Below are positions 2,155 to 26,876 of a DNA stretch of 33,734 nucleotides, piece after piece. This DNA is from Rhodospirillales bacterium (GTDB lineage Bacteria; Pseudomonadota; Alphaproteobacteria; Acetobacterales; Acetobacteraceae), in assembly GCA_025359905.1 (NCBI GenBank), contig JANYDF010000067.1, positions 1-33,734 of the forward strand, in the 5' to 3' direction. Position 1 is the first letter of the stretch. Each line of letters starts with the position of its first letter. Below the pieces are notes generated by a model that did not search any database, was not told where the DNA came from, and saw nothing but the letters and a program-made list of their open reading frames with translations. Made by a program: the position numbers and the translations under genes.

Positions 2155-3327
2155 ATGAAGCTGTTCGGTAAAGCGGCAGTTCTGGCGGCCGTGCTCACCG
2201 CAGTGTGCGGCGGCGCGTTCGCGGCGGGCGTGGATGAGTTGCCGCCCGACGTGCAGCAGCGCCTGTACGACAAGGCGATGCTGGACCCGGCCCAGCCGGT
2301 CGCGGCCAGCGCGTACCGTGACTGGCACGCCAAGAAGTCCCCGCCGTGGACCATCGGCTACGCTAGTTCCTACGCCGGCAACACCTGGCGCGCGGCGGCC
2401 ATGGACCGGCTGCAGAACGAGATCATTCCCAAGTGGAAGAAGCTCGGCCTGATCAAGGACGTGGTGATCACCCAGTCCAACCTGAAGGATTCGACGCAGA
2501 TCCAACAGATGCGTCAGCTGGTCGATCAGGGCGTGGACGCCATCATCGTCTGCTGCTCGAACCCGACCGCGCTGAACCAGACGGTGAAATACGCCTATGA
2601 CAAGGGCGTGCCGACCTTCTCGTTCACCGGCTACCTGACCTCGCCGTACGCGGTGAACTCGTCGGTGAACTATCAGTTGGCGGGCTTCGACCTTGGCCAG
2701 TGGATTTCCAAGGAAATCGGCAACAAGGGCAACGTGCTGGTGGTCGAGGGCATCCCCGGCACCTCCGGCTCGGACAGCCAGGATCACGGCATCAAGGCGG
2801 GCATTGCCGCCAATAAGGACGTGAAGATCACCGGCGACGTGGCCGGCATGTGGACCGATCAGGTCGCCCAGGGCGAAGTGCAGAAGTGGCTTGCCACCCA
2901 CCCCGGCAAGCTCGACGGAATCGTTGTGCAGTCGGCCGCCGAACTGGGCGTGCTGCGCGCGCTGAAGCAGTCGGGCCGTGAGATGGTGCCGGTCACCATC
3001 GGCGGTGAGTTGGGCGCGCTGTGCTACTGGCGCAAGCACCCGAACTACGTCAGCGGCGCGTTCCATGTGTGGCCGCCGGGCGACGATATCGAGCTGACCT
3101 GGAACATCATGATGCGCACGCTGGAGGGCCAAGGCCCGAAGGTGCAGTCGGTCCTGGTTGACCCGATCAAGTTCGGCTTCGACGACGTGAAGAAGGCGCT
3201 GCCGGAAGATTGCAGCGAAGATTCGGACAAGTGGCTGAACGTTGGCCCGGCGAACTGGGGCAGCGATCCGGCTTATCTGAACAACTTCTTCCTGCATCCG
3301 GCCGATCCCGAAGCCTACAAGCCGTAA
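2155..3327 (+). CDS. Sugar-type ABC transporter periplasmic substrate-binding protein
   Basis: Exported ligand receptor, 390 residues, of the periplasmic binding protein type seen with ribose/monosaccharide importers (Peripla_BP_4-like). A Sec signal peptide spans about 1-23 (KLFGK, a hydrophobic stretch, then GGAFA). The mature part has the expected alternating pattern: IGYASSYAGNTWR, VDAIIVCCSNPTALNQ, VLVVEGIPGTSGSDSQDHG, LDGIVVQSAAELGVLRAL. The ATG at 2155 has a strong ribosome site (AGGGGAG, 4 nt upstream). It is first in a long operon behind the two-part operator at 2004-2040. The protein is somewhat longer than RbsB-like proteins (about 300), with an N-terminal segment (24-60) and a C-terminal tail containing two Cys. 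The ligand cannot be read from the sequence. Confidence 0.9.
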   Translation: MKLFGKAAVLAAVLTAVCGGAFAAGVDELPPDVQQRLYDKAMLDPAQPVAASAYRDWHAKKSPPWTIGYASSYAGNTWRAAAMDRLQNEIIPKWKKLGLIKDVVITQSNLKDSTQIQQMRQLVDQGVDAIIVCCSNPTALNQTVKYAYDKGVPTFSFTGYLTSPYAVNSSVNYQLAGFDLGQWISKEIGNKGNVLVVEGIPGTSGSDSQDHGIKAGIAANKDVKITGDVAGMWTDQVAQGEVQKWLATHPGKLDGIVVQSAAELGVLRALKQSGREMVPVTIGGELGALCYWRKHPNYVSGAFHVWPPGDDIELTWNIMMRTLEGQGPKVQSVLVDPIKFGFDDVKKALPEDCSEDSDKWLNVGPANWGSDPAYLNNFFLHPADPEAYKP

Positions 3328-3392
3328 CCGGCTCGCTGGCGGCGGCGGCGGGCGCAATGCCCGCCGCCGTTGCTGGCAAGGACATGCCGCGC

Positions 3393-5318
3393 ATGGCCAG
3401 CGACGCAATCATCACCGAACTGCCATCGCCGCCGGCGCATTCATCCGAAGCGCCGGCGGCGGCGGCTGGTGGCATCGCCGTGGTCGGCGCGCGCAAAGCC
3501 TTCGGCGTGACGCGTGCGCTGGACGGCTGCAATTTCAGCGCCTCATTGGGCGAAATCCACGCCATCGTCGGCGGCAACGGCTGCGGCAAGAGCACGCTGG
3601 CCAAAGTGCTGTCCGGCGTGCTGCCGCTGGATGCGGGTCAGGTTTCGGTGCTGGGCCACGCGCCGGGCACGCCATCCGAAGCCCGCGCCGCTGGCATCGC
3701 CACGGTGTTTCAGGAAGTTCTGGTCGCCGACGAATGCTCGGTCGCCGATAATCTATACTTGGGCGCCGATACCCTGTGGTCGCGCACACTGCCAGCCGCC
3801 GCCAAGGCCAAGGCGGCCGGGGCCCTGATGCGCGATCTGGCGGCGATGGACATCGACCCGGAGACGCTGGCGGGCACGCTGCCGCTCGGCGTCAAATCCT
3901 GGATCACCATTGGGCGCGCCTTGTTGCAAAATCCGCGCGTGCTGATCCTCGACGAATCCTCGGCAGCACTCGATCTGGACTCCACCGAACGGCTGTTCGC
4001 CAAGATGCGCGCCTTGCGCGACCGGGGTTCGGCGGTGCTGATCGTGACGCACCGTATCGCCGAACTGATCCGCATCAGCGACCGCGCCACCGTGCTGCGC
4101 GACGGGCGCGATGTCGGCGTGCTGGAAAAGCGCGACATCACCGAGCGCAACTTGCTGAGCTTGATGACCGGCAAGGCCGAGCCCGCGCATATCTCGATGG
4201 CCGCCGCCCAGGAAGTGCTGCACCACGACGTGCAGATGCGGGTGAAGGGCGTCACCATTTGGCCGCAGGCCAAGCCGGTGGACGCGGCGATCCACAAGGG
4301 CGAAATCCTCGGACTCGCCGGGCTGGACGGTCAGGGCCAGAGCGAATTCGCCCGCGTGCTGGCCGGCGTGATGCGCGCCGAGCAGGGCGCGCCGCAGATG
4401 CGTAACCGCGCCGGGCAGTTCGTGCCGGTGCGCACGCTGGAGGAAGCCACCGCCAACGGCATCGCCTACGTGTCCGGCGACCGCAAGCGCGAGGGCATCT
4501 TTGCCAATCTGAGCATTTTCGAAAACCTGCTGATGCCGCTGTACCGCCGCCGCTCGCGCGCCGGGGCGCTGGCGGTGATCGACTGGGCGGAATTGGCGAG
4601 CGTGTTCGACTGGGAAGTCGAAAAGCTCGCGGTGCGAATGGGCGAGCGGACCAACAAGATCACCTCGCTGTCCGGCGGCAATCAGCAAAAAGTGCTGATC
4701 GGCAGGGCGTTCGCGCTCAATCCCGATGTGCTGGTGCTGAACGACCCGGCGCGCGGCGTCGATGTCGGCGCGAAAGGCGAGTTGTACCGCCACCTGCGCG
4801 ACTTCGCCGCGCGCGGCAAGTCGGTGGTGTACATGTCCAGCGAAATCGAGGAATTCGTCGGCTTCTGCACCCGGGTGCTGGTGTTCCGCCACGGCAGCGT
4901 GTTCGCCGAAATGACCGGCCCGGCCATCGAGCCAGCGCGCATTCTGGAAGCCATGTTCGGCCAGACCCACGCTGCCGGCGTGTCCAAGCCGGTGGCAGCG
5001 GCGGCAACGGGCGCGCATGAGGCGGTGAAGATCGTCGAATTCGCCTTCCCCGATGAGCCGGACGGCGCTGCCGCCGATTTCGGCCGCAAGCCAAGCTGGG
5101 CGCCAGGACCGGAAATCGAGACGGCTTCGGAAGATGTGTTCGACCCGATGCCCGCCACCGCGCGGCTGCCGCAGCGCATCAAGGTGGTGGACTTCGACCC
5201 GCAGACGAACGCCGCCAGTCTGCGCGAGCGGATCGGCCCGATCAAAATCCGCGAATTCGGCAAGGACGGCGAGCCCGCCAAACCGGCGATCCGCATCGTC
5301 AAGTCGGACCGCGCATGA
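3393..5318 (+). CDS. Sugar ABC transporter ATP-binding protein (two ABC domains) with a motif-bearing C-terminal tail
   Basis: Tandem ATPase of an RbsA/MglA-like importer, 641 residues against about 500 for the family. Domain 1: Walker A GGNGCGKST (60-68), Walker B VLILDES with D187/E188, but a poor signature (LPLGVKSW). Domain 2: degenerate Walker A (GLDGQGQSE), good signature LSGGNQQ (about 426-432), and Walker B altered to VLVLNDPARGVD, so the usual Asp-Glu pair is Asn450-Asp451. After about residue 525 comes a 115-residue charged tail with repeated strands VKIVEF (545), IKVVDF (596), IKIREF (617) and IRIV near the end; similar motifs start the lactonase at 13200-14129. The start at 3393 is chosen for AAGGA 10 nt upstream; ATGs at 3357 and 3384 are alternatives. 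It overlaps the next gene by ATGA. Confidence 0.9.
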   Translation: MASDAIITELPSPPAHSSEAPAAAAGGIAVVGARKAFGVTRALDGCNFSASLGEIHAIVGGNGCGKSTLAKVLSGVLPLDAGQVSVLGHAPGTPSEARAAGIATVFQEVLVADECSVADNLYLGADTLWSRTLPAAAKAKAAGALMRDLAAMDIDPETLAGTLPLGVKSWITIGRALLQNPRVLILDESSAALDLDSTERLFAKMRALRDRGSAVLIVTHRIAELIRISDRATVLRDGRDVGVLEKRDITERNLLSLMTGKAEPAHISMAAAQEVLHHDVQMRVKGVTIWPQAKPVDAAIHKGEILGLAGLDGQGQSEFARVLAGVMRAEQGAPQMRNRAGQFVPVRTLEEATANGIAYVSGDRKREGIFANLSIFENLLMPLYRRRSRAGALAVIDWAELASVFDWEVEKLAVRMGERTNKITSLSGGNQQKVLIGRAFALNPDVLVLNDPARGVDVGAKGELYRHLRDFAARGKSVVYMSSEIEEFVGFCTRVLVFRHGSVFAEMTGPAIEPARILEAMFGQTHAAGVSKPVAAAATGAHEAVKIVEFAFPDEPDGAAADFGRKPSWAPGPEIETASEDVFDPMPATARLPQRIKVVDFDPQTNAASLRERIGPIKIREFGKDGEPAKPAIRIVKSDRA

Positions 5319-6667
5319 GCGGCACCGTCGCCGCCCCGCGCGCCTCGGCGTCCAGCGCCTATTTGCTGGTGCCGATTCTGCTGTTCTTCGTGCTGCTGAT
5401 CGTCGCCGTGCTGCGCAGCCCGCATCTGATCACCAGTGCCGGCATCGGCAGCGCGGTCATTGTCGCGGCCCCCTTGGTGTTGGCCACCTTCGCGCTGATG
5501 GCGATTGCCATTGCCGGGCGCGGCAGCGTGGATTTGTCGGTGGGCCCGCTGATCGGCTTCATCAACGTGGTGCTGGTGCAGTTGTTCGGCGCGGACGTGA
5601 TTTCCGCCCCGCTGGAATTCTTCGCCACCGCCATCGGCCTCGGCCTCGCCTACCAATTGGTGATGGGGCTGATCATCGTGTTTATCCGGGTGCAGCCGAT
5701 CATCGTGTCGCTGTCCGGCTATCTGGCGCTGTCCGGCATCAATCTGGTGATCATGCAGCGCCCTGGCGGCACCGCGCCCGATTGGATGCTGCCGTGGGGG
5801 GCGGGCACCTCGATCTGGTCGCCGGTGCTGGCGTTGCTGGTGATCGCCACCGGGGCGTGGCTGCTGTTCGCGCGCACCGCGTTCTTCGGCCATCTGCGGC
5901 TGATGGGGTCGGACGAGCGGGCGGCCTACACGGCGGGCGTGCATATCGGCATCGTGCGGATCGGCGCGCATCTGATCGCGGGGGTGTACGCGGCGCTGGC
6001 CGCCATCGCCTACACCGCGCTGATCAGTTCCGGCGACCCGACGCAGGGCACCACCTACACGCTGATCTCAGTGACGGCGCTGGTGCTGGGCGGCACCAGT
6101 CTGGCGGGCGGGCGCGGCGGGGCGATCGGCTCGCTGCTTGGCGCGCTAAACATCTATTTGATCACCTACGTGCTGGCGACGTTCAGCTTCGGCGACGTGC
6201 AGAGCTTCGTCACCGATCTGGCGTACGGCACCATTTTGGTGTGCTCGCTGCTGCTGACGGTGGCGCTGCCGCGTTTGCAAAGCACGCTGCGCCATGTCTC
6301 GCCGCTGCTGTTCTTCATCCTGCTGTTCATTGTGGCGTTCGGCGTGATCCTGCACGCCACCTACGACTACGGCGTGCCATCGGGTGCTGCCCAAGCGGTG
6401 GCGCCTGCCACGTTCCTGTTCGAGGACGCAGCGCCGCGCGCCGCCGCCGCCATGCCGATGCTGGCGCATCCGGTGGCATTGGCCACCGTACTGCTGGTGG
6501 CGTTGCTGGCGGTGCTGCGCTGGGCGATTGCGCAGGCGCGCACCCGCAGCCTGTCGCCGCTGGTCTATCTGGTGGTCGGCGCGGCGGCAGTGCTGGCGGT
6601 GTATCTGCTCGCGCGGCCCGCACAATCCGATGTCATGGCGCCGGCCGTCACGCAGGGGGTGAAGTGA
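5315..6667 (+). CDS. Sugar-type ABC transporter permease 1, extended at the C terminus
   Basis: Inner-membrane permease of the branched-chain/ribose type (BPD_transp_2). The core (about 1-325) carries the family landmarks: GRGSVDLSVGPLIGFINV near 65-85 and the loop LVLGGTSLAGGRGGAIGSLLGAL near 245-270 that contacts the ATPase. The protein has 450 residues where RbsC-like permeases have about 320-350. The surplus is a C-terminal block with three further hydrophobic segments (SPLLFFILLFIVAFGVIL; VALATVLLVALLAVL; PLVYLVVGAAAVLAVYLLA). The start overlaps the ATPase stop (ATGA) and its stop overlaps the next start (TGATG), so translation is probably coupled. It pairs with permease 2 to form a heterodimeric channel. 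Confidence 0.88.
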   Translation: MSGTVAAPRASASSAYLLVPILLFFVLLIVAVLRSPHLITSAGIGSAVIVAAPLVLATFALMAIAIAGRGSVDLSVGPLIGFINVVLVQLFGADVISAPLEFFATAIGLGLAYQLVMGLIIVFIRVQPIIVSLSGYLALSGINLVIMQRPGGTAPDWMLPWGAGTSIWSPVLALLVIATGAWLLFARTAFFGHLRLMGSDERAAYTAGVHIGIVRIGAHLIAGVYAALAAIAYTALISSGDPTQGTTYTLISVTALVLGGTSLAGGRGGAIGSLLGALNIYLITYVLATFSFGDVQSFVTDLAYGTILVCSLLLTVALPRLQSTLRHVSPLLFFILLFIVAFGVILHATYDYGVPSGAAQAVAPATFLFEDAAPRAAAAMPMLAHPVALATVLLVALLAVLRWAIAQARTRSLSPLVYLVVGAAAVLAVYLLARPAQSDVMAPAVTQGVK

Positions 6668-8019
6668 TGCGCACCCTGCCATTGCTGCGCTGGATCGGCC
6701 TTGGCGTGGCGCTGCTGATCGCCGCGATCAGTTTCGGGCTGGGGTTGTGGCAGAATCTGCCTGCACAGCAGGCCATGTTCTACGCCGCCGCCACCTTCGC
6801 CGCCGTTGCCTGGGGCTGGCACCACTACGCGGTGCGGCCGGGCGAGCATGCGGCGGCGAGCGGCGGCGAACCCAGCGGCCCGCGCGGTGAGGTCTGGCGG
6901 CGCTACCGGGCGGCGATTATTGCGGGCGGGTTGATCATCGCCGCCTTCCTGATCGCCTCGGCGGCGATGGACGGCTTCTTCACTTGGCTGAACATCATCG
7001 CATGCCTGGTATTGGTGGCGCTGATCTTCCTTTCGGTTGGGCTGAGCGGCCTGATCGTGGCCAACCGCAGCGCATTCATCGGGCTTATCGTGCTGGGCGG
7101 GCTGTTCTTGCTGGGTGCGTTGAAGGTCGATGGCTTTGCGTCCGGCGCCAACCTGAAATCCATGCTGGTGTTCGCGTCGTTTCTTGGGCTGGCTTGCGTC
7201 GGGCAGACCTTGGTGGCGCTGCTCGGCGGGCTGGACTTGTCGATCCCGTTCGTCATTGGCTCGGCCAATGTCGGGCTGCTTTATATCATTGGCCTTGGCG
7301 TGCCTCCGGTGATCGCCATCATCCTGATCCTGCTGCTCGGCGCACTGGTCGGGCTAATCAACGGCATCCTGAGCTTCCGCTTGCAAGGTCAGGCGCTGAT
7401 CCTGACGCTCGGTATCGGCTTCGCGGTATCCGGCGGCACCCAGATTCTCACCAGCATCGGCAGCAAGTTCGCTGGCAACGTGTTCGGGCAAGTGCCCGAC
7501 TGGCTGAAGAACCTTGCCGCGATGAACGGCAATACCTTCGGACTGAACGTGCCGCCGGTGATCCTGATCTGGGGCGCGGTGGCGATCCTGATGATCCTCG
7601 GGATGAAGAACACCGTGTACGGCCGCTACCTGTACGCGCTCGGCGGCAACCGCACCTCGGCGGCGCGGCTGTCGATTTCCGAGCGGCGCTACTGGATCGG
7701 CGTCTACACCATCAGCGGCGCGGTCTCGGCCCTCACCGGGGCGCTGCTGCTGGGCTGGAGCGGCGGCGGCTTCATCGGGGTCGGCCAGCCGTATCTGTTC
7801 ATGACGCTGGCTGCCGTGGTGATCGGCGGCACTTCATTGCTTGGCGGCAATGGCGGTTACGGCTTCACCGTGATCGGCGTGCTGGTGCTACAGGTGCTGA
7901 CCTCGTTCCTGGTCGGCATTGGGCTGACCTATGAGTGGCAGCAATTCATCTTTGGCCTGCTGATCCTGCCGATGGTGGCGCTGTACGCGCGCTCGCCGCA
8001 CATCCGAACCCAGATCTGA
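6667..8019 (+). CDS. Sugar-type ABC transporter permease 2, extended at the N terminus
   Basis: Second BPD_transp_2 permease, 450 residues. The N-terminal 120 residues add three hydrophobic segments (WIGLGVALLIAAISFGLGLW; MFYAAATFAAVAWGW; AAIIAGGLIIAAFLIASAA) before the conserved core, mirroring the C-terminal extension of permease 1. Core landmarks: TLVALLGGLDLSIPFVIGSANV, the loop GRYLYALGGNRTSAARLSI and VVIGGTSLLGGNGGYGFTVIGVLVLQVL. The ATG at 6667 overlaps the preceding TGA by one base, and in-frame homology begins here; the frame is open far upstream only as a shadow of permease 1. The two permeases and the double ATPase fit a complete importer. Confidence 0.88.
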   Translation: MRTLPLLRWIGLGVALLIAAISFGLGLWQNLPAQQAMFYAAATFAAVAWGWHHYAVRPGEHAAASGGEPSGPRGEVWRRYRAAIIAGGLIIAAFLIASAAMDGFFTWLNIIACLVLVALIFLSVGLSGLIVANRSAFIGLIVLGGLFLLGALKVDGFASGANLKSMLVFASFLGLACVGQTLVALLGGLDLSIPFVIGSANVGLLYIIGLGVPPVIAIILILLLGALVGLINGILSFRLQGQALILTLGIGFAVSGGTQILTSIGSKFAGNVFGQVPDWLKNLAAMNGNTFGLNVPPVILIWGAVAILMILGMKNTVYGRYLYALGGNRTSAARLSISERRYWIGVYTISGAVSALTGALLLGWSGGGFIGVGQPYLFMTLAAVVIGGTSLLGGNGGYGFTVIGVLVLQVLTSFLVGIGLTYEWQQFIFGLLILPMVALYARSPHIRTQI

Positions 8020-8062: not shown

Positions 8063-8770
8063 GTGGACGGTAAGTTCCTGCAAGCCACCGACATCGCGGG
8101 CGGCAGCTTTCTACTGCTGCTGGTGGCCTCCATCGGCGCCAGCGTGTTGCTGTTCCTCGGCACCGGCTGGGTGGACCGGCGCTGGAAGCTGCCGGTGGCG
8201 CTGGCCGGGCTGATCGCGCTGATCGCGGCATTGCATTACTACGAGGCGCGCGCGGTCTGGCAGGGCGCCGGGCAGATGCCGGTGATCTACCGCTACGCCG
8301 CGTGGCTGATCGGCGTGCCGGTGCAAGTCGCCACGGTGTATTTCTTCGCCGGCGCCCTGGCCCCGGTGCCGTCCGGCCTGTTCTGGCGGCTGATCGTGGT
8401 GGCGGTGGGCATGGTGCTGGCGCGCTACATGGGCGAGACCGGGGCGATGAACGCCACGCTCGGCTTCCTGATCGGCATCGTCGGCTGGCTGTATATCCTC
8501 GGCGAATTCTTCTTCGGCCGTCTGGGCGACATCACCGCCAAGAGCGAGCATGAGGCGGCGCAGACCGGCATGTTCTGGCTGCGGCTGATCGCCACCGTGG
8601 GCTGGGCGATCTATCCGCTGTGCTACTTCGTTGCGGCCTTCGCTGGCGGCGTGGACGTGGCCAAGCTGAACATCGTCTACAACCTCGCCGATATCGTCAA
8701 CGAACTGACCTTCGCGCTGGTGGTGCTGACGGCCGCTCTGCGCGACCAGCCGGCGGGGGCAAAGTCATGA
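8063..8770 (+). CDS. Proteorhodopsin-like seven-helix protein lacking the retinal-binding lysine
   Basis: Microbial rhodopsin-family membrane protein, 235 residues, seven hydrophobic segments. Recognition is by helices B-G: HYYEARAVW (58-66), YRYAAWLIGVPVQ (76-88), ARYMGETGAMNATLGFLIGIVGW, GWAIYPLCYF (180-189) and YNLADIVNELTFALVV (206-221). These line up with proteorhodopsin HYMYMR, FRYIDWLLTVPL, GYMGEAG, GWAIYPVGYF and YNLADFVNKILFGL. The Schiff-base lysine is Glu214 (codon GAA at 8702-8704), the proton acceptor Asp is Ala80, and the donor Glu is Thr91. Pocket residues H58, R77, W81, W181, Y184, P185 and D210 remain. GTG start at 8063 with GGAGG 6 nt upstream. It cannot form the normal retinal Schiff base, so light-driven pumping is unlikely; a sensor, scaffold or transporter-partner role is inference. 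Lysine-less opsin relatives are known in fungi. Confidence 0.88.
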   Translation: MDGKFLQATDIAGGSFLLLLVASIGASVLLFLGTGWVDRRWKLPVALAGLIALIAALHYYEARAVWQGAGQMPVIYRYAAWLIGVPVQVATVYFFAGALAPVPSGLFWRLIVVAVGMVLARYMGETGAMNATLGFLIGIVGWLYILGEFFFGRLGDITAKSEHEAAQTGMFWLRLIATVGWAIYPLCYFVAAFAGGVDVAKLNIVYNLADIVNELTFALVVLTAALRDQPAGAKS

Positions 8771-8816
8771 CAATCGCCGGATCTAAGATCACGCGGCAGG
8801 CTGGGAGGGTTTGGGC

Positions 8817-10493
8817 ATGAACGGCGCGGACATTATCGCGATCATTATCCTTGCCGCGATTGTCATCGCGGTCATCGTCTATCTGCTGCACTGGCTGTAC
8901 CGCCGCTCGTCGAAAGACATGAGCTTCGTGCGCACTGGTTTTGGCGGTGAAAAAGTTGTGATGGGCGGCGGCGCGATTGTTTTGCCGATTGTCCACGACG
9001 TGACCGAAGTCAGCATGAACACGCTGCGCCTCGAAGTGCGCCGCGCGCGGGAACGCTCGCTGATCACCAAGGACCGGATGCGCGTCGAGGTGACCGTGGA
9101 ATTTTTCGTCCGCGTGGTGCCGACCGCCGAAGCGGTGGCCGCCGCCGCGCGCACGCTGGGCAGCCGCACGCTGAACCCGGAGAAACTCAAGGAACTGGTC
9201 GAGGGCCGCTTCGTCGACGCCATGGGTATGGCTGCCGCCGAAATGACCATGGAAGAAATGCACGAAAAGCGCGGCAATTACATCAAGGCGGTCAAGGCGC
9301 AGGTCGCCGGTGCCCTGACCCATAACGGCCTGGAACTGGAAGCCGCCTCGCTGACCAGCCTCGACCAGACCGACATGAAGCTGTTCAACCCGGCCAACGC
9401 GTTCGATGCCGAGGGCATGACCAAGCTGACCGAGACCATCGAGAGCCGCCGGAAGAAGCGCAATGACATCGAGCAGGACACGATGATCGCGGTGCGCAAG
9501 AAGAACCTGGAAGCCGAGAAGCTGGCGCTGGATATCGACCGCGAGAGTGAATACTCGCGCTTGGCGCAGGAGCGCGAGGTGGCGATCCGCCGCGCCCAGC
9601 AAAAAGCCGAAGTCGCGCTGGAACGCACCGAGCGCGAGCGCGAGATCGAGGAAGCGCAGATCCGCGCCCGCGAGGACATCGAGAAGTCGCGCATCCGCCA
9701 GGAACGCGAGATCAACGCCGAGCGCATCCAGCGCGAACAGGAAACCGAAACCCAGGAAGTCCAGCGCCGCCGGATGCTGGAGATTGAGGAACAGGAACGC
9801 ATCATCGCGGTGTCGGTGAAGTCGAAGGAACAGTCCGAGGCGCAGGCCGCCGCCGAACACGCGCGCGGCGACGTGGTGCAGGCGCAGGAGCGCGTCACCA
9901 CGATCCGTGAGACGGAGGCGGCCGAGCGGCGCAAGGCGATCGAACTGATCGAAGCCTCGCAGCAGGCCGAGTCCGAAGCGTTGAAGTTGCAGATCGAGGC
10001 GCAGGCCGGCAAGGCCGCTGCTTCCGACCGCGCCGACGCCACCCGCTTGCTCGCGGCCGCCAGCAAGGTGCAGTACGAAACCGACGCCGAGGGCCAGCGC
10101 CTGCTCAACGAGGCCGAAAACATGCGCAGCGACGCCAACCGGCGCAGCAAGCTGCATGTCAAATTGGTGGAAAACCTGCCCGCGATCATCCGCGAGAGCG
10201 TCAAGCCGATGGAGAATATCGAGTCGATCCGCATCCTGCACGTCGATGGTGTGCCGGGGCTGAGCGGCCCGGTGACGGGTGGCGGCGGCGGCGATGGTTC
10301 GCCGCAGATGGATGGCGGGATCGGCGGCGGCAGCCTGTCGGAAAAAGTGGTCAACTCGGCGCTGCGCTACCGCGCCCAGGCGCCATTCGTCGATGCGCTG
10401 TTGCAGGAAATCGGCATGCAGCCGGGGGCGATGAGCACGCTGGTCAACCTGCCGGTGCCGGAACGCCCGAAGCCGCCGAAGGACGCGGGCTAG
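8817..10493 (+). CDS. Flotillin-like SPFH/Band 7 membrane protein
   Basis: Membrane-microdomain scaffold of the flotillin/YqiK type, 558 residues. One N-terminal transmembrane segment (about 5-27, IIAIIILAAIVIAVIVYLL) is followed by an SPFH domain (about 45-200, e.g. FVRTGFGGEKVVMGGGAIVLPIVHDV) and a very long Glu/Ala/Arg-rich coiled coil (about 215-450, repeats of the EREIEEAQIRAREDIE kind). The tail includes a Gly-rich linker (GGGGGDGSPQMDGGIGGGS) and a conserved-looking end (YRAQAPFVDALLQEIGMQPG). The ATG at 8817 is preferred: GGGAGGG lies 7 nt upstream; a TTG two codons earlier is in frame but worse placed. It follows the opsin-like gene by 46 nt and precedes a small membrane protein by 9 nt, so it is part of the same transport operon. 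Flotillins oligomerise and organise membrane protein complexes; a role in clustering these transporters is inference. Confidence 0.92.
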   Translation: MNGADIIAIIILAAIVIAVIVYLLHWLYRRSSKDMSFVRTGFGGEKVVMGGGAIVLPIVHDVTEVSMNTLRLEVRRARERSLITKDRMRVEVTVEFFVRVVPTAEAVAAAARTLGSRTLNPEKLKELVEGRFVDAMGMAAAEMTMEEMHEKRGNYIKAVKAQVAGALTHNGLELEAASLTSLDQTDMKLFNPANAFDAEGMTKLTETIESRRKKRNDIEQDTMIAVRKKNLEAEKLALDIDRESEYSRLAQEREVAIRRAQQKAEVALERTEREREIEEAQIRAREDIEKSRIRQEREINAERIQREQETETQEVQRRRMLEIEEQERIIAVSVKSKEQSEAQAAAEHARGDVVQAQERVTTIRETEAAERRKAIELIEASQQAESEALKLQIEAQAGKAAASDRADATRLLAAASKVQYETDAEGQRLLNEAENMRSDANRRSKLHVKLVENLPAIIRESVKPMENIESIRILHVDGVPGLSGPVTGGGGGDGSPQMDGGIGGGSLSEKVVNSALRYRAQAPFVDALLQEIGMQPGAMSTLVNLPVPERPKPPKDAG

Positions 10494-10502
10494 GTCTGAC
10501 CG

Positions 10503-10940
10503 GTGGCGGACACCTCACCCGCATTGACCGGCGAGAAGGCCACCGAGCATCTCCTCGCGGTGGTGACGCTGTGGGCGGTGTCCGGCGCGTTCGGGCTGGC
10601 GCTGATCCTCAGCGGCTTCCGCGACAGCGCCATCGTGCTCGGCTTGCTCGGCTTCGCCTGCATCATCGCCGGGTTCGTGGCGCATGTCATCGTCAACAAC
10701 GTGTTCGAGACGCGGTTCAGCCAGTTGCAGGTGGTGGCCGGCATGTCCGGCTTCTGCGTCGCGGTGCTGAGTTTCATGGCAAGCTGGCTGCTGGACCCGC
10801 ACTTCGACGTGGCCGGCATCACCATCGGGCTGGGTGGCTTTGCCGGGGTGATCCTGGCGTTCCTGGTCTATCTGGTGGCGATGCACGGGATGCGCGGCGC
10901 GTTTTCCATGTTCCATCGCCGGCGCGCGAGGCTGAGGTAG
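10503..10940 (+). CDS. Small four-helix membrane protein of unknown function
   Basis: Not recognised as a named family. 145 residues with four hydrophobic segments: HLLAVVTLWAVSGAFGLALIL (18-38), AIVLGLLGFACIIAGFVAHVIV (43-64), LQVVAGMSGFCVAVLSFMASWLL (74-96) and ITIGLGGFAGVILAFLVYLVAM (104-125). The C-terminal tail is basic (MFHRRRARLR), predicting a cytoplasmic end. GTG start at 10503, 9 nt after the flotillin stop; no strong ribosome site, so translation may be coupled. It ends 4 nt before the symporter start. Position suggests an accessory subunit of the flotillin/symporter group, but the sequence does not show this. Confidence 0.7.
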   Translation: MADTSPALTGEKATEHLLAVVTLWAVSGAFGLALILSGFRDSAIVLGLLGFACIIAGFVAHVIVNNVFETRFSQLQVVAGMSGFCVAVLSFMASWLLDPHFDVAGITIGLGGFAGVILAFLVYLVAMHGMRGAFSMFHRRRARLR

Positions 10941-10944: not shown

Positions 10945-12969
10945 GTGCCGAACACCACCATCTGGCTGTTCGCCGGCGTTGCCGCCTACTGGGTATATTG
11001 CCTGTACTGGGGCGTGCGCTCGGCGCAACTGGCCGATAGCTCCAGCCAATTCTTCCTGGCGGACCGGCAACTGCCCGCTTGGGTGTTTGTGCTGGCCGCC
11101 ACTGCCGCCAGTTTCGGCGGCTGGATGTTTCTCGGCCACGGTACGCTGATCTTTCGTGACGGGCTGGCAGCCTCCGAGTTGTCGCTGGGCGCGGTGGCGA
11201 TCCCGCTGACCGGCGTAGTGTTCCTCAAGCGGCAATGGATTCTGGGGCGGCGGTTCGGCTACGTGACGGCGGGCGATCTGTTCGCCGATTACTTCCAAAG
11301 CGAAGGCGCGCGGCTGTTGGTGCTGCTGATCGCCCTGGTGTTCGCGGTGCCGTTCATCGGCCTGCAACTGGCGGCGTCCGGCGACCTGATCGCAAACTTG
11401 TCCGGTGGCACCGTCAACGCCGATGTGGCGATGTGGGTGCTGAGCTTCGTGGTGTTCCTGTATGTCTGCCTCGGCGGCATGCGTGCGGTGGCCTATGTCG
11501 GCACCTTGCAGGCGCTGCTGCTGGCCGCCGGATTGGCCGCGATTGGGCTGCTGGCGTACGGGCGGCTCGGCGGTTTCGGGCCGCTCAATGACTTGCTGGC
11601 CAAACTCGGCGCCACCGCCATCGGGCCTTACGGCAATACCGCGCAGGGCTATAACGGCTGGTTCGTCATCCCGGGCGTGATCCAGTTCACTGCCGGTCTG
11701 GGCCGCGAGACGCCGGTGGGCGGCATCTGGACCGCCGCGATGATCGCCACCTATTGCTTCGCGCTGATGGGCATTCAGGCTGGGCCGGTGTTCACCACTT
11801 GGGCGTTCAGCGCCCGCTCGCCAAAGGGCTTCGCGCCGCAACAGGTCTGGGCCTCGGCGGCGGCGATGGGTTTGGCGCTGCTGTTCTTCGCCGCCGCCGC
11901 CGGACTGGCCGCCCCGTTCCTTGGCGCGTCCGAGGCCACTTCGGCGTTGGCGGTGGGCAACTCGCTAACGCCGGGTCGGTTGAGCGGCCTGATGGGCGGC
12001 TATATCGCCTCGCTCGGCACGGCAGCGCCTTGGTTCGCCGGCCTGCTCGCGGTGTGCGCGCTGGCGGCGATCCAGGCAGTCGCGGCGGGCTACGCGCTGA
12101 CAACTGGCACCATGCTGGCGCGCGACCTGTATGCCCGCCACATGGCCCCGGACGCCGATGACCGCCGCGCGCGCGGGTTCGGCCGCGTCGCGGTCGGCGC
12201 CGTGGTGCTGGCCGCCGTGCTGCTGGCCAGTTTCGCGCCGCTGTCGCAGGCGCAACTCGGCGCGCTGGCGTTGGGCTTCGGCGCGCAACTATGGCCCGCG
12301 TTGGTGGCAATCTGCTGGGTGCGCTGGTTTACGCGGGAGGCGGTGCTGCTCGGCCTGATCGCGGGGCTGGCCGCTGTGGTGCTGACCGAGCCGTTCGGCG
12401 GCGCCTTGGCGCAGTTCTTCGGCGTGGCTTTGCCCTGGGGCCGCTGGCCGTGGACCATCCACTCGGCGGGCTGGGGCATCGCCATTAATATCGCCGTGGT
12501 GCTGCTGGTCTCGGCGCTGACGCAGACCGAGGCTGGCCGCGCTCACCGCGCCCGCTTCCACGACTATCTGCGCGAGGTGGCCAGCCTGGGCGAGGCCAAG
12601 CGCGGCCTGCGTACGGTGGCCTGGACCTTGACGCTCGGCTGGCTGTTCTTCGCCATCGGGCCGGGCGCGCTGCTCGGCAACGACCTGTTCGGCGCGCCGA
12701 ATGCTGGGCTCGCGGGCTGGATTCTCGGCATCCCGTCGCTGTGGGCGTGGCAAATCCTGTGGTGGGCCCTGGGCGTGCTGCTGGTCTGGTTCCTGGCTTA
12801 TAAAATGGAACTGTCGACGACGCCGCGCGCCCGCATCGAGCCAGTGCCAGCCTCCGCCCGCCCGCGCTTGGCGGGCCGCGCGGTGGATGGTGCGGCGGCG
12901 CTGCGGGCGTTCTGGTACGTGGCAGCGTTTGCGGCGCTGCTGGCGGCGGCGAACTGGCTGTTCGGGTAG
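10945..12969 (+). CDS. Sodium:solute symporter (SSF family), long form
   Basis: Secondary transporter of the PutP/PanF/SGLT superfamily, 674 residues with roughly 13-15 hydrophobic segments. Diagnostic stretches: an N-terminal helix (TTIWLFAGVAAYWVYCLYWG), then FFLADRQLPAWVFVLAATAASFGGWMFLGHG (the unwound TM1 region of the fold), GRRFGYVTAGDLFADYF, and SGDLIANLSGGTVNADVAMWVLSFVVFLYVCLGGMRAVAYVGTLQ split over two helices. The core ends near 520. A C-terminal block of about 150 residues adds further membrane segments (LGWLFFAIGPGALLGNDLFG; PSLWAWQILWWALGVLLVWFLAYKMEL; AFWYVAAFAALLAAANWLFG). GTG start at 10945 with GAGG 7 nt upstream. It is last in the operon that begins at 2155. Its presence beside an ABC importer suggests two uptake routes for related substrates, or counter-transport of a product; the substrate is unknown. 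Confidence 0.88.
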   Translation: MPNTTIWLFAGVAAYWVYCLYWGVRSAQLADSSSQFFLADRQLPAWVFVLAATAASFGGWMFLGHGTLIFRDGLAASELSLGAVAIPLTGVVFLKRQWILGRRFGYVTAGDLFADYFQSEGARLLVLLIALVFAVPFIGLQLAASGDLIANLSGGTVNADVAMWVLSFVVFLYVCLGGMRAVAYVGTLQALLLAAGLAAIGLLAYGRLGGFGPLNDLLAKLGATAIGPYGNTAQGYNGWFVIPGVIQFTAGLGRETPVGGIWTAAMIATYCFALMGIQAGPVFTTWAFSARSPKGFAPQQVWASAAAMGLALLFFAAAAGLAAPFLGASEATSALAVGNSLTPGRLSGLMGGYIASLGTAAPWFAGLLAVCALAAIQAVAAGYALTTGTMLARDLYARHMAPDADDRRARGFGRVAVGAVVLAAVLLASFAPLSQAQLGALALGFGAQLWPALVAICWVRWFTREAVLLGLIAGLAAVVLTEPFGGALAQFFGVALPWGRWPWTIHSAGWGIAINIAVVLLVSALTQTEAGRAHRARFHDYLREVASLGEAKRGLRTVAWTLTLGWLFFAIGPGALLGNDLFGAPNAGLAGWILGIPSLWAWQILWWALGVLLVWFLAYKMELSTTPRARIEPVPASARPRLAGRAVDGAAALRAFWYVAAFAALLAAANWLFG

Positions 12970-13199: not shown

Positions 13200-14129
13200 T
13201 CAATCGTAAAACCCGCCCGGCGCGTGCTGAAACGTAGCCCACAAATCGGGATCGTGCCCGGTCACGATCATCGCCCCGGTTCGCGCCGCCACGTCCTTCA
13301 GCTTGCGCACCGAGGCGACCGCGTCGACTGACGAGCACACCAAGCCGGGCAGTGCTTTTTCGTTCCAGTGGTCGATGGTGTAGGCGGCATCGACCGCCAG
13401 CAGCACCGGGCCGGTGTTGGGCAGCGTGATCAGGAACGAGGTGTGGCCGACCGAGTGGCCCGGCGTGAAGATCATCTTGATGACGCCGTCGCCGAACACG
13501 TCGAAGAAGTCGGTGTATTCGCCGCCAAGGAACTTCCAGTCGATGCCGCGCTTGTCGAAATCGGCGCGGATATAGGCGCCGGCGGCAAACCAATCCGGCG
13601 AGTAGGCGTATTCGTGCTCGATGCGCTGCACGATGGTGGTGGCGTTCGGGAACCGCCCGCAGGCGCCGGAGTGGTCAAGGTGCAGATGCGATTGCAGCAC
13701 GTATCGCACATCTTCCGGCCGCACGCCGACGCTGCGCGCCTGATCGACGCAATTCTCGCTCGGGTCCATCACCGGGTCGTAGGCGTCGATCACCGCACCC
13801 CAGTGGCCGCGCTTGTCGGTGGCTACTTCCACCGCATTGCCGCCGTCGATCACCACGTTGCCGCGCGGGTGCTTGATGAGGAACCACGGCACCGGGATTT
13901 CAAAATCCTGGCCGTCGCCCTGGTTCATCTTGATGTATTTCAGCTTGGTCTTCAGCGTGCCGGTCTGAAACATGTAGAGCTGCACATCGGAGGTGCGCCG
14001 TTCTGCCGCCGGGCCTTTCGCCACCGAACGCTTCGGCGCGCCGTCGTAGCCGAACTCGACAATCTTGATGCCGCTGGCCCGCTCGGGCCGCTGTTCGCGT
14101 TCCAGCTTGTCGAATTCAATGATTTTCAT
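13200..14129 (-). CDS. AttM/BlcC-like lactonase (metallo-beta-lactamase fold) with a motif-bearing N-terminal extension
   Basis: Zinc lactonase related to N-acyl-homoserine lactonase/gamma-butyrolactonase AttM (BlcC), 309 residues against about 260 for the family. Metal ligands: HLHLDH (148-153), H225 in TPGHSVGH, D247 in AVDAAYT and H292 in VTGHDPD. Family landmarks are also kept: LYMFQTGTLK, MNQGDGQDFEIPVP, VIDGGNAVEVATDKRGHWG and IDHWNEKALPG. Residues 1-47 precede the normal start of the family and contain two motifs, MKIIEF (1-6) and IKIVEFGYDG (21-30), closely resembling motifs in the tail of the ABC ATPase at 3393-5318. ATG at 14129; no strong ribosome site. It is last gene of the minus-strand operon, 135 nt behind the hydrolase. 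It hydrolyses a lactone ring; the true substrate could be a quorum signal, gamma-butyrolactone or a sugar lactone. Confidence 0.9.
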   Translation of the reverse strand: MKIIEFDKLEREQRPERASGIKIVEFGYDGAPKRSVAKGPAAERRTSDVQLYMFQTGTLKTKLKYIKMNQGDGQDFEIPVPWFLIKHPRGNVVIDGGNAVEVATDKRGHWGAVIDAYDPVMDPSENCVDQARSVGVRPEDVRYVLQSHLHLDHSGACGRFPNATTIVQRIEHEYAYSPDWFAAGAYIRADFDKRGIDWKFLGGEYTDFFDVFGDGVIKMIFTPGHSVGHTSFLITLPNTGPVLLAVDAAYTIDHWNEKALPGLVCSSVDAVASVRKLKDVAARTGAMIVTGHDPDLWATFQHAPGGFYD

Positions 14130-14156
14130 GCGTGGCCGTCCATCGAAGCAGCTTGG

Positions 14157-14250
14157 AACCGCAGATGGCGCAGATCGGCGCAGATAAGGGAAGCGCGTAG
14201 CGCCATGCGCCTGCCTCGTCTCATCTGCGCGATCTGCGCCATCTGCGGTT
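14157..14250. repeat. REP-like palindromic element between hydrolase and lactonase genes
   Basis: Two 30-nt arms, 14157-14186 and 14221-14250, are inverted copies differing by an indel and an end base. Each arm is built of three GCAGAT units (AACCGCAGATGGCGCAGATC and onward). The loop of 34 nt holds a small GCGC-N3-GCGC hairpin. It lies inside the 135-nt gap of the minus-strand operon and would form a large RNA hairpin there. There is no T-tract in the minus direction; the T-rich run (14254-14263) lies on the plus-strand side, so it is unlikely to terminate operon transcription. Confidence 0.75.
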
Positions 14251-14264: not shown

Positions 14265-15119
14265 TTATCCGCCGGTCCGCTCACGGATAATCCGCAGCGC
14301 TTCCTTCAGGTAGATGCGGAATACCGGGTAGTTCTCGCTCATCGGGAAGTGGCCGATGTCGTTCATCTCGATGTACACGCCGCCCTTGATGCGCCGCGCG
14401 GTATTCTCGGTGACGTCCGGCGGCGTCAGGTAGTCGTAGGTGCCGGTCATCATCACCACCGGGCATTTGCGGCCGTCGATATGCTCCAGTTCCTCGCGCA
14501 GATCGTGCTCCACCGAGTAGAAATACAGGTCGCCTTTGAAGGCTTCCGAACCTTGCGTGTAGTAGAACCAGGTTAGCCAGCGGTCCATTTCCGGCGATTG
14601 CGGCGCCATCAAATCCCACACGCCGCTGGCGCACACTTGCGCCGCGTTGGCGTGCGGATGGCGCCACCAATCCAGGAAGAAGCCCGGCGCATGGTCCGCC
14701 GCCTCCACCGGGATCACCGCGCGGAAGCGGTCCGGGCGGCGCAGTGCGAGTTGCAGCGCCACGTTGCCGCCGAACGACGAGCCCATGAAAATCGGATCTT
14801 TCAAGCCCAGCGCATCGGCCAGCTTGACGATGAAGTTCACGTAGTGCTCGGCGGTGAGCTTGTACTCGGTCTTCCACCACTCGCTGTTGTGCGGCGGGTC
14901 GGACTTGCCGTGGCGCGGCAGGTCGTAGGCGATCACGTTGTAGTTCTTGGTGATCTCCTCGTCTTCCAGCAGGCCGCGCCATTGGTGGTTGTGGCAGCCG
15001 GCGGTGTGCTGGCACAGCAGCGGCGTGCCGCGGCCGTTGTGCAGGTAGAACACCTTGTATTCCATGCCGTCCACGTCGATCGTGACGTAGCGGCCGGTGA
15101 CAGGGGAGTGACGCGCCAT
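14265..15119 (-). CDS. Alpha/beta hydrolase
   Basis: Alpha/beta-hydrolase fold enzyme, 284 residues, typical length. The nucleophile elbow is GSSFG with Ser115; the acid is probably Asp229 (TGTYDYLTPPD) and the base His257 (NDIGHFPMSE). The oxyanion region is LLCQHTAGCHNHQW and the strand-4 motif is YDLPRHGKSDPP. Resembles C-C hydrolases, haloperoxidases and esterases of small-molecule catabolism; the cap is Trp-rich (FFLDWWRHPHANAAQ). The ATG at 15119 is chosen over longer in-frame extensions because AGGAG sits 6 nt upstream and extension would overlap the SCP2-like gene. It lies 20 nt behind that gene and before the lactonase, so the three are probably co-transcribed. The substrate may be the ester or lactone form of whatever the ABC system imports; that is inference. 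Confidence 0.88.
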   Translation of the reverse strand: MARHSPVTGRYVTIDVDGMEYKVFYLHNGRGTPLLCQHTAGCHNHQWRGLLEDEEITKNYNVIAYDLPRHGKSDPPHNSEWWKTEYKLTAEHYVNFIVKLADALGLKDPIFMGSSFGGNVALQLALRRPDRFRAVIPVEAADHAPGFFLDWWRHPHANAAQVCASGVWDLMAPQSPEMDRWLTWFYYTQGSEAFKGDLYFYSVEHDLREELEHIDGRKCPVVMMTGTYDYLTPPDVTENTARRIKGGVYIEMNDIGHFPMSENYPVFRIYLKEALRIIRERTGG

Positions 15120-15139: not shown

Positions 15140-15529
15140 TTAGACGGGCACGCCGCTTTTGCGCAGCAACTCGAACTGCACGGTGAAATTCCGCAGATTC
15201 TGCATCAGCACCAGCAGATTGCCTTCCAGCTTCAGATCCTGGCGGAAACTGGCGGCCCAGATGCCGTGGAACATCGGGCGCGGCACCGGCTGGCCGAATT
15301 CGCGCCAGGTTTGCGCGCTGGCGCGCAGCGCGAAATCGTAGGCGTCCATCGGGGCCGGGTTGATGTTGATGTGCTTGACCTTGCCGTCGTGCATGTCGAT
15401 GATGACCTTGCGGTCGGTCATGTCCCACATGTAGGTGCAGGTGTAGTACTTGCCCATCGCGGCAATGGTCTGGTCATTGTCGGTCAGGCTCTTGAACTTG
15501 TTTGCCCAACTCTTGATCTCGACTGCCAT
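15140..15529 (-). CDS. SCP2-like (sterol carrier domain) small protein
   Basis: 129-residue soluble protein. The second half resembles the SCP-2 fold: VIIDMHDGKVKHININPAPMDAYDFALRAS, TWREFGQPVPRPMFHG and LKLEGNLLVLMQNLRNF, the position where SCP2 domains read GkLkieGD. SCP2 domains bind hydrophobic ligands such as acyl-CoAs or lipids. ATG at 15529 with GAGGA just upstream. It is the first gene of the minus-strand operon, followed 20 nt later by the alpha/beta hydrolase. The leader between it and the operator at 15785-15820 is about 255 nt. Role in the pathway (carrier for a hydrophobic lactone or ester) is inference; family assignment is from pattern only. Confidence 0.65.
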   Translation of the reverse strand: MAVEIKSWANKFKSLTDNDQTIAAMGKYYTCTYMWDMTDRKVIIDMHDGKVKHININPAPMDAYDFALRASAQTWREFGQPVPRPMFHGIWAASFRQDLKLEGNLLVLMQNLRNFTVQFELLRKSGVPV

Positions 15530-15864: not shown

Positions 15865-16683
15865 ATGAATCCCGCTGATTTTGCCCAACCAGCCGCGGCC
15901 GGCGAAGCCTCCCGCGCTGTGCCCGCGCTGTTGCGTGGCTGCATGGTGCTCGATGCCGTCGTCGCTGCCGAGCAGCCGCTGACCGTGTCGGATTTGGCAC
16001 GGCGGCTGGACTTGCCAAAGAGCACGGTGCACGGGCTGTGCGCCACGCTGGTCGAACTCGGCCTGCTGTTGCGCCGCCCGGACAACGCGTTCCGCATCGG
16101 ACCGCACGTCATGCGCTGGGCTCATGCGTTCACGATGCAAACCGACCTCACCGCCGAATTCGCCGCATTGTGCGACGCAACCGGGCCGTCAGCCGATGAG
16201 ACGGTGACGCTGTCGGTCCTGGAAGGGCGCGATGTGGTCTACATCGCCTGCCGCAATAGCACCGCGCCGCTTGGGGTGACGTTTCGTATCGGTATGCGGC
16301 TGTCGGCGCCGTACACTGCCACTGGCAAGGCGCTGCTGAGCACAATGGACGATTCGAACGTGCGGGCGTTGTTCGAGGGCGCTTGGCCGCCGCCGTTGAC
16401 CGGGCGCAGCGTGCGCAACGTCGAGGCGTTGCTGGCGGAGTTGGCCGGCTGCCGGGCGCGTGGCTATTCGATCGATGACGGGCAGGTGCGCGAGGGGATG
16501 CACTGTTTCGGCATACCAGTGCGCGATTCCATCAATCGGGTGGTGGCGGGCATCGCGGTCAGCCTGCTCGCCGGGCGGGTCAGCGCCGTGTCCACCCGGC
16601 GCGGGGTGCATAGCATCACCACGATGGCGCATGCGTTGTCGGTCAGGCTGGGGGGCCAATCGCTCCCACCGGGCGGAAGCTAG
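15865..16683 (+). CDS. IclR-family transcriptional regulator
   Basis: 272-residue regulator, usual family length. An N-terminal winged helix-turn-helix (about 20-85) contains LTVSDLARRLDLPKSTVHGLCATLVELGLL. The C-terminal effector domain (about 95-265) has GVTFRIGMRLSAPYTATGKALLS, RARGYSIDDGQVREGMHCFGIPVRD and VVAGIAVSLLAGR, the usual ligand-pocket strands. ATG at 15865 with AGGAG 6 nt upstream. It is divergent from the SCP2-hydrolase-lactonase operon, and a two-part palindromic operator lies in between, with a twin at 2004-2040. IclR proteins bind as tetramers to paired sites, which fits the doubled inverted repeat. BlcR (AttJ), the repressor of the Agrobacterium lactonase operon, is also of this family. 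The effector is presumably the imported lactone or a breakdown product (inference). Confidence 0.93.
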   Translation: MNPADFAQPAAAGEASRAVPALLRGCMVLDAVVAAEQPLTVSDLARRLDLPKSTVHGLCATLVELGLLLRRPDNAFRIGPHVMRWAHAFTMQTDLTAEFAALCDATGPSADETVTLSVLEGRDVVYIACRNSTAPLGVTFRIGMRLSAPYTATGKALLSTMDDSNVRALFEGAWPPPLTGRSVRNVEALLAELAGCRARGYSIDDGQVREGMHCFGIPVRDSINRVVAGIAVSLLAGRVSAVSTRRGVHSITTMAHALSVRLGGQSLPPGGS

Positions 16684-24232: not shown

Positions 24233-26055
<1,823 letters not shown>

Positions 26056-26174
26056 CGGCGGAGCCGAGACCGCACCTGATTTAGAGATCGTCGCGCTGCC
26101 GTCATTAATTCCGTCCCGGGTGCGCCGGACGAACTCAATCTTCGGTTCAGCGCCCCTCCAGTGGCCAGCCGCCG

Positions 26175-26498
26175 TCAGGGGCGTAGTTCCATTACCGCCG
26201 GGGTATGCCGGGGATGCACCTTCACCGTCACTTCGACCTCCTGCCCCAGTCCTGCCAGGATGGACATCAGGCGGTCGATGGTGAACCGGCCCAGGCTGGC
26301 GTTGCGGATGCGCGAGAAGTCGGCGGCAGCGACGCCGGTCAGATCGTGGGCGGCCCGCACGGTCAGTTTCCGTTCATCGAGCACGCCGATAATCTGTGCG
26401 GCCAGCAAAGCACGAAGCTGTTCGCGGCCGGCGTCAGGATGGCCGAGATCGCGGAATATGTTCCCGCTGCCACGGATGATGTCCATGTCGCCGCTCAT
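26175..26498 (-). CDS. XRE-type antitoxin of a HigBA/RelE-like pair
   Basis: 107-residue helix-turn-helix protein. The central HTH (about 45-85) reads LTVRAAHDLTGVAAADFSRIRNASLGRFTIDRLMSILAGLG, typical of HigA-like antitoxins, followed by a short basic beta tail (VEVTVKVHPRH). It should neutralise the toxin and repress the operon. ATG at 26498 overlaps the toxin stop by 4 nt (ATGA). Toxin-first order fits the HigBA arrangement. Confidence 0.85.
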   Translation of the reverse strand: MSGDMDIIRGSGNIFRDLGHPDAGREQLRALLAAQIIGVLDERKLTVRAAHDLTGVAAADFSRIRNASLGRFTIDRLMSILAGLGQEVEVTVKVHPRHTPAVMELRP

Positions 26499-26842
26499 CT
26501 TAGCCTCTCTTTCAGCCGCCGCAGCCGCTCGTGGACCAGGTCGATATCCGGCTTGGGGGTCTTGATCCCGGATTTCGATTTCTTCTGGAATGCGTGAATG
26601 ACCCAGATGTCGTCACCGATCCGCAACGCATACACAATCCGGTATGCGTCCCCCCGGTGCTTCAACGCCAGTTCCATCACGCCGTCGTCGAAACCGGTCA
26701 GATGCTTGGCGATGTCTGGCATCCGGCCCTCGGCCAGAATCGTGAGCGCCCGGGCCATCTCGATTTGTGCCCCTTGCGGGAAGTCCTCGAAATCTTTCCG
26801 GGCACCCTTGATCCAGCTTACCGGGCGCGAGTCTCTCAACAT
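26495..26842 (-). CDS. RelE/ParE-superfamily toxin (HigB/Gp49-like)
   Basis: 115 residues. Pattern of the phage Gp49-like branch of RelE toxins: VSWIKGARKDFEDFPQGAQIEMARAL, then HLTGFDDGVMELALKHRGDAYRIVYALRIGDDIWVIHAFQKKSKSGIKTPKPD interrupted by no gaps. The basic residues near HAFQKKSKSG correspond to the RNA-binding end. Family members cleave mRNA on the ribosome. ATG at 26842 with only a weak ribosome site, usual for toxins. The gap to the upstream glycosylase gene is 34 nt and would have to hold the promoter, unless it lies within that gene. Confidence 0.85.
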   Translation of the reverse strand: MLRDSRPVSWIKGARKDFEDFPQGAQIEMARALTILAEGRMPDIAKHLTGFDDGVMELALKHRGDAYRIVYALRIGDDIWVIHAFQKKSKSGIKTPKPDIDLVHERLRRLKERLR

Positions 26843-26876
26843 CCGCAGTCAACGTAGTCATGTTTGACAACACTGG

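Follow-up and report, generated by a model that had tools for sequence, protein, structure and literature searches.

The window analysed, a stretch of 33,734 nucleotides from a bacterium of the Acetobacteraceae, contains a flotillin-associated-rhodopsin (FAR) gene cluster, as recognized from Pfam domains and gene order. The forward strand encodes an importer consisting of a substrate-binding protein (positions 2155-3327; PF13407), a sugar-type (RbsA/YtfR-like) ABC ATPase with two nucleotide-binding domains and a C-terminal tail (3381-5318; PF00005, NF041861) and two permeases, the first (5315-6667) assigned from its open reading frame, position and conservation (protein cluster c8) and the second (6667-8019) from its C-terminus and position, as in cluster c9 of the relatives. 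The ATPase frame was read from 3381 and has 645 codons; the first ATG of the stretch is at 3384 and the start codon is putative. On the same strand follow a rhodopsin-like protein, putatively of the FArhodopsin type, with glutamate at the retinal-lysine position (8063-8770; PF01036), a flotillin (8811-10493; PF15975, PF01145), a small protein (c11, 10500-10940) present in 16/54 loci and a sodium:solute symporter (10945-12969; PF00474). The reverse strand encodes an AttM-family lactonase (13200-14129; NF045700) with an N-terminal extension (residues 1-47) that carries the tags described below, its constant neighbour, an alpha/beta hydrolase (14265-15119; PF00561; cluster c0 in 50/54 loci), and a frequent neighbour, an SCP2-like protein (c10, 15140-15529) with a weak match to PF02036 (E 0.02, below the cut-off). 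A cluster-conserved IclR-type regulator (15865-16683, forward strand; PF01614, PF09339) completes the set, and no shell protein was named among the cluster genes scanned or annotated.

The main text of Haro-Moreno et al. (2023; PMC10308929) describes FAR clusters from marine and freshwater bacteria, abundant marine lineages among them, in which flotillin lies beside a rhodopsin-like gene together with sterol-carrier-like, sodium symporter and alpha/beta hydrolase genes. According to the same text, the clusters of HIMB59 and Pelagibacterales also have biotin carboxylase and PxpA, lysine-less rhodopsin forms are reported from freshwater, and membrane scaffolding by flotillin microdomains is discussed. 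The window has the same combination of genes: the rhodopsin-like gene directly adjoins the flotillin gene on the same strand, and the SCP2-like gene (its Pfam match being below the cut-off), sodium symporter, membrane translocator and hydrolase are nearby. It differs from the published clusters in its tagged AttM lactonase and in its 4.6 Mb genome; neither lactonase nor ABC transporter is named anywhere in that main text, and no reference to shared terminal peptides was found. In the rhodopsin-like protein cluster (44 members including the window), the retinal-lysine position was occupied by arginine in 33 members and by glutamate, glutamine and leucine in one each, with 8 left unread by the script.

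The C-terminus of the ATPase and the N-terminus of the lactonase were found to have a peptide pattern in common, [IM][KR]I[VI]EF-[DG]xxG. The best family model for the ATPase (NF041861, score below its cut-off) covers residues 34-525, and since it ends there, the tail comprises about 120 residues, in agreement with the earlier note, which had reported a tail of more than 100 residues with VKIVEF, IKVVDF and IRIV. These copies are located on the forward strand at 5025-5042 (VKIVEF), 5178-5195 (IKVVDF) and, as a partial copy near the C-terminus, 5289-5300 (IRIV), with a further copy, IKIREF, at 5241-5258, 19 residues from the C-terminus. The lactonase begins with MKIIEF (14112-14129, reverse strand) and has a second copy, IKIVEF (14052-14069, reverse strand), as the earlier note had observed. 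The reported spacing of 20-21 residues between copies (21 in the ATPase, 20 in the lactonase) and the G-x-DG-x-P following the motif (GKDGEP after IKIREF and GYDGAP after IKIVEF) were likewise found. The AttM model NF045700 matched the lactonase with 438.9 bits (cut-off 390) starting at residue 48, and therefore the extension of about 47 residues, said to be absent from AttM/BlcC, is real. The observation that no named domain has this pattern also held, as neither the tail, nor the extension, nor the free array of tags described below had a Pfam match up to E 1; the free array had no PDB match up to E 10, and no earlier report of the tag was found in the open-access papers searched with the peptide letters and the combination of cluster genes.

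When termini of the window proteins were compared with each other, the ATPase C-terminus and lactonase N-terminus ranked at the top of 312 comparisons, with a score of 61 as compared to 40 for the next pair and 45 for the best shuffle. The same test on a locus with one tag per protein (L033) gave a score of 32, below the best shuffle (35) and thus not significant; the support for the tag at this locus comes from conservation across loci and not from the single-genome score. With a matrix built from the tags, no score above 3.7 bits was obtained for proteins of the 54 loci that belong to neither the lactonase nor the ATPase cluster and none above 12.6 bits for shuffled proteins, and the lowest value listed for a tagged protein was 15.1 bits, except for the degenerate L063 with 8.6, a test that is partly circular since tagged proteins score high by construction.

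The conservation of the tags was determined by scanning genome contigs with six seed peptides, one of which was MKIIEFDK and none of which was the ATPase tag. This gave 53 loci, 45 of them with both the lactonase start and the ATPase end readable. Both proteins were tagged in 44/45 loci and neither in one (L063), which has FAR genes and, in place of a proper tag, a degenerate VKVFKF at the lactonase. The tag count includes three variants, MKIVQF on the L037 lactonase, MKILEF on the L066 lactonase and IRIVAF on the L022 ATPase, and for three loci absent from the protein clustering (L028, L067 and L073) the status was counted from reading the termini. The motif was neither confined to random tails nor unconserved in homologues of the two proteins. 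In the 39 relatives measured, the last ATPase tag ended 11-20 residues from the C-terminus in 37, the distance being 12 residues in 23/39 and 17 residues in 9/39. At L063 the frame of the FAR-type ABC ATPase runs into a C-terminal phosphatidylethanolamine-binding-protein domain (PF01161; 7064-9223, reverse strand), and at L184 (3029-5416) a permease frame beside unread bases has a stretch of GSG-IQSL repeats after its membrane part.

For the remaining 8 loci the ATPase was absent from the DNA of the locus (at L064 the lactonase start was also missing) and was sought genome-wide. A tagged ATPase was found in G084, a genome in which the L021 lactonase is present at identical coordinates on contig 182. 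Untagged ATPases were found in the genomes of L051, L057, L070, L071 and L072, and in those of L055 and L064 the search gave only distant ATPases (35 and 33% identity). An exact match to the MKIIEFDK seed by the N-terminus was present only at L021 and L070-L072; the AhlS-like loci were probably found via this tag seed and the other loci via other seeds. Twelve AttM homologues outside FAR clusters (L004-L014 and L019), with 57-67% identity, had no tag. Alcohol or aldehyde dehydrogenase homologues adjoined them in 8/12 loci, and no other cluster genes were found within about 3.8 kb, except for a weak ATPase match at L012. The window lactonase shares its catalytic domain with the AttM/BlcC N-acyl-homoserine or gamma-butyrolactone lactonases, above the curated cut-off, an assignment made here from sequence alone, and differs from them in the 47-residue tagged extension and in having a FAR cluster instead of the dehydrogenase neighbours seen in 8/12 of the untagged homologues.

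To what extent the tag is specific to FAR clusters was examined with patterns of different stringency. The strict pattern occurred in 27/385 genomes of the class, in four of which (the window genome, G508, G601 and G678) it formed conserved terminal tags or arrays, all with FAR c10. In the other 23 the opened matches were internal, many of them in an S1-like stretch presumably belonging to PNPase, or, in the case of G122 and G494, close to where unrelated frames begin; the first match of each of the 27 genomes was opened and the second G494 match was left unopened. Matches near frame starts were seen in unrelated frames at L205 and L226 and at a CoA-transferase-like start at L212. Orthologues of c10 above 160 bits were present in 7/385 genomes, namely the four tagged ones, G581 and G658 with variant tags, and G519, which had no strict-pattern match and of which an 8.8 kb contig was examined. 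In G519 and G990, c10 (58 and 53% identity) and the hydrolase (69 and 73%) were both found and no FAR core gene was present on the contigs of 8.8 and 18.9 kb, so these two genes alone do not imply the tag. A search for other proteins with the strict pattern in 25 genomes led to 20 opened regions, and in 17/20 (not L108, L117 and L122) an open frame of at least 60 amino acids contained the motif, either in an internal stretch, near the start of CoA-transferase-like or membrane proteins (L104, L106, L111), or in doubtful coding sequence; several INIMEF, VQIIEF and other matches were left unopened. With a relaxed pattern in four genomes there were 45 matches, and of 26 new loci opened (nine further were left unopened) 20 had the motif; apart from the known ATPase tag of the window (L284), nothing tag-like was found among the loci opened, and the motif with which L304 begins probably forms the initial strand of a different metallo-hydrolase-like protein. 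A variant pattern gave 8 matches in 8 genomes, two of them at the already fetched biotin carboxylase tails and the others unopened. In the genomes searched, the conserved terminal tag occurs only with FAR-type genes.

The tag was also found on other carriers. In three genomes (L070-L072) the start MKIIEFD is present on an AhlS-like lactonase that belongs to a corresponding cluster and is 27-28% identical to the lactonase of the window, and the ATPases of these genomes are without tag. The AhlS-like label is based on L072, the one of the three that was scanned, for which the AhlS model NF047976 was the best of the matched families with 357.7 bits, below its cut-off of 475 (AttM 114.7). In AhlS-type clusters (L125-L127, L238 and L239) the ATPase ends in a conserved LR[EQ]LR.LPPW[MI]RAARL instead of the tag. 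At L051 and L057 an AttM lactonase has four tag copies and adjoins its own SCP2-like (c10) and hydrolase genes, no flotillin, permease or ATPase was found within 13.5 and 9.4 kb, respectively, and the best FAR-type ATPase of each genome is untagged. A free open reading frame of about 110 residues with five tags was located between the ATPase and permease genes in 3/3 genomes of one genus with FAR c10 (G508, G601 and G678), where the ATPase ends in the variant tags IKIVET[DE]...VK[AV]V[FY]FDD and the lactonase has no tag. In G508 the comparison of ATPase tail and free array ranked first (57 versus 48 for the best shuffle), in G317 only membrane segments exceeded the shuffles, and in G319 nothing did.

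In family f30, which is probably HIMB59-like as judged from gene content among other things and in which the SCP2-like gene is present in 40/52 genomes, all of the complete fetched ATPases (14/14) end in [IV][KQ]VVDF...IK[IV]KYF and all of the complete fetched biotin carboxylases (16/16) carry IKI[VS][EDR]TD, with [IM]K[VI]V[FY]FD as their last residues. One two-part tail is found on the ATPase in one lineage and on the biotin carboxylase in a different one: the G508 ATPase tail scored better against the biotin carboxylase tails of L187 and L274 than 1998 and 2000 of 2000 shuffles, respectively. Within G658 the ATPase and biotin carboxylase tails scored 42, below the best shuffle of 45 and not significant, and the similarity of the two f30 tails therefore rests on conservation. 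These results show that the tag is modular between unrelated proteins. In the f30 rhodopsin-like proteins shown (L187, L188, L266, L269 and L274) the lysine is kept at the retinal position.

The f30 lactonase carries a different tag from that on the biotin carboxylase (tags B and A, respectively, tag A being the IKIVEF element). Tag B (YKxSDLDxFxxI) is a second N-terminal peptide, found in f30 clusters on the AttM-type lactonase, which starts YKKSDLDxF, and on a PxpB-like subunit, which starts YK[NTS][TS]D[LI][DN]LFx[KQ]I (carrier loci are, for example, L269:4430-5704 on the reverse and L187:16649-17593 on the forward strand). It was present in 15/15 f30 lactonases and 13/13 PxpB-like proteins found in the fetched loci; at L320 no lactonase was found. 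The termini of the G658 lactonase and PxpB-like protein ranked first of 544 comparisons (68 versus 45 for the best shuffle). It seems that the sharing of a terminal peptide between unrelated cluster proteins arose at least twice.

The selection acting on the tags was estimated from pN/pS. In 48 lactonases the six tag codons had a ratio of 0.124 and the next six one of 0.277, compared with 0.771 in the linker and 0.215 in the catalytic domain, and the set includes L187 and L188, which are without tag A, and the degenerate L063, all of which work against the contrast. For 39 ATPases, which were chosen for having the tag and in which the linker was aligned automatically, the tag had a value of 0.173, compared with 0.840 in the linker and 0.275 in the nucleotide-binding part. 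In each of two unrelated proteins, a peptide of six residues is thus under stricter constraint than the catalytic part, and the adjoining linker is close to neutral. Since the tag codons vary synonymously (pS 0.79 in the lactonase and 0.59 in the ATPase), the tag is not a DNA motif. In an AlphaFold2 prediction based on the 48 lactonases, residues 1-38 had a pLDDT of about 32 and are predicted to be disordered, and most ten-residue blocks of the catalytic domain had values of 83-98, with lower values in loops; packing of the tag on the lactonase's own domain was not seen in the model.

The interpretation that we favour, and consider fairly likely, is that the IKIVEF element serves as a short address tag at protein termini and gathers cytosolic proteins of the FAR cluster into one assembly. 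The tag would be formed by one strand ([IM][KR]I[VI]EF) and a DxxG turn, perhaps followed by a second short strand; it would be held on a disordered tether and act by binding. At the membrane, perhaps in the patch that flotillin has been proposed to organise in FAR clusters, it may bring together the importer ATPase and the enzyme with which the respective lineage processes the compound taken up (a lactonase of the AttM or AhlS-like type, or a biotin carboxylase); the purpose would be local hand-over of the imported substrate with enzymes kept near the importer. The docking or assembly tag suggested in the earlier note is well supported by purifying selection, the disordered placement on the lactonase, the unrelated carriers, the free array and the co-occurrence with FAR genes. 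The more specific proposal that it brings the lactonase to the importer is less certain: exclusive docking is contradicted by five genomes with a tagged lactonase and an untagged ATPase (three of the AhlS type and those of L051 and L057), by G508, G601 and G678, and by the f30 biotin carboxylase. Because of these five genomes direct docking of the lactonase to the importer is not required, and given that other genomes tag the ATPase and something else, an exclusive lactonase-ATPase pair is unlikely and as a general rule can be rejected. A common receptor or homotypic assembly fits better.

As reader of the tag, a common partner from the cluster core would be our first choice over homotypic pairing and is probably the correct one. 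The alpha/beta hydrolase and the SCP2-like neighbour are the first candidate receptors by association, because they are the most constant companions of the tag, even at loci where no flotillin was found near the tagged lactonase. A joint AlphaFold model of the L051 c10 protein, hydrolase and four-tag lactonase, read across the stops, was poor (mean pLDDT 52) and gave no sign of docking; of the four tags, a single one was in a weak strand pair (about 60 pLDDT) and the remainder had no structure, and a model of this quality neither supports nor excludes a receptor.

Homotypic binding, in which antiparallel IKIVEF strands pair with K2 facing E5 and lactonase, ATPase and free arrays assemble into a sticker-and-spacer network by beta pairing between tags, is a rather unlikely alternative. 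It would account for the self-complementary K/E layout apparent from the peptide, the occurrence of two tagged proteins in most clusters, the multiple copies at times present (2 and 3-4 in the window, 4 at L051 and L057, 5 in the free array) and the coexistence of the free array with tag-like ATPase tails, but in five genomes the tagged lactonase has no tagged ATPase to pair with and the four tags in the single chain modelled, poor as the model is, formed no sheet with each other, a single tag being in a strand pair of about 60 pLDDT. We regard it as very unlikely that the tag is a turnover signal by which an AAA+ protease such as ClpX removes the tagged proteins together. The terminal, disordered position would suit such a signal, and so would a presumed resemblance to the N-terminal ClpX signal of phage lambda O, but a free protein with five tags, copies in the middle of a tail and occurrence with a single kind of gene cluster would be odd for a general degron. 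Even less probable is that the tag belongs to the structure of each enzyme separately, for instance as its own oligomerisation strand, with the sharing due to coincidence or to ancestry without a common role; the lactonase tag can indeed occur without the ATPase tag, but the tag is predicted to be disordered on the lactonase, is found on several unrelated proteins and is missing from the 12 AttM homologues found outside FAR clusters (57-67% identity). A resemblance by chance or low complexity, or a translated DNA-level element, can practically be dismissed: the core comprises a mere six residues, other proteins contain the pattern internally, for example in PNPase-like S1 regions, and single-genome comparisons were not always significant, but the termini scores of the window, the tag B scores in G658, the paired occurrence in 44/45 loci and the strong purifying selection at the amino acid level rule out chance, and the high synonymous change in the tag codons rules out a DNA-level motif.

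An address tag would have counterparts in known systems. Encapsulation and microcompartment targeting peptides and the docking domains of polyketide synthases are short terminal peptides on disordered tethers that unite unrelated enzymes. The FAR tag is like these in being short, terminal, on a disordered tether and on unrelated enzymes of one cluster, and it is unlike them in that there is no shell or known receptor, it is strand-like, it is present on an ABC importer ATPase and a free array exists. The cluster also resembles flotillin-organised membrane microdomains, in that flotillin and transport proteins are encoded together and membrane scaffolding has been proposed; to our knowledge no peptide address tag is known for such microdomains. 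Taking both peptides together, FAR clusters might use a small tag code, a possibility that we put forward tentatively, in which tag A labels at least one enzyme together with the importer ATPase, tag B labels other f30 enzymes, and matching tags sort unrelated enzymes into a membrane metabolon around the flotillin and rhodopsin-like core, with tags moving between proteins in the course of evolution, including a free multi-tag scaffold. If this is correct, FAR-cluster bacteria would assemble importer and enzymes by transferable peptide labels, and the unexplained flotillin and rhodopsin-like proteins would gain a testable role as assembly site. The tag is short enough for a direct test and could serve as a laboratory recruitment tag.

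Automatic gene starts can hide such tags. In a Martelella plasmid record (L242) the annotated lactonase start (14169) is placed 56 codons past the first codon of the tag, and the tag-bearing codons at 14001-14168 are thereby omitted. The cluster continues in this record with an iron-containing alcohol dehydrogenase and a succinate-semialdehyde dehydrogenase (25860-28496), which hints at a gamma-butyrolactone or 4-hydroxybutyrate route.
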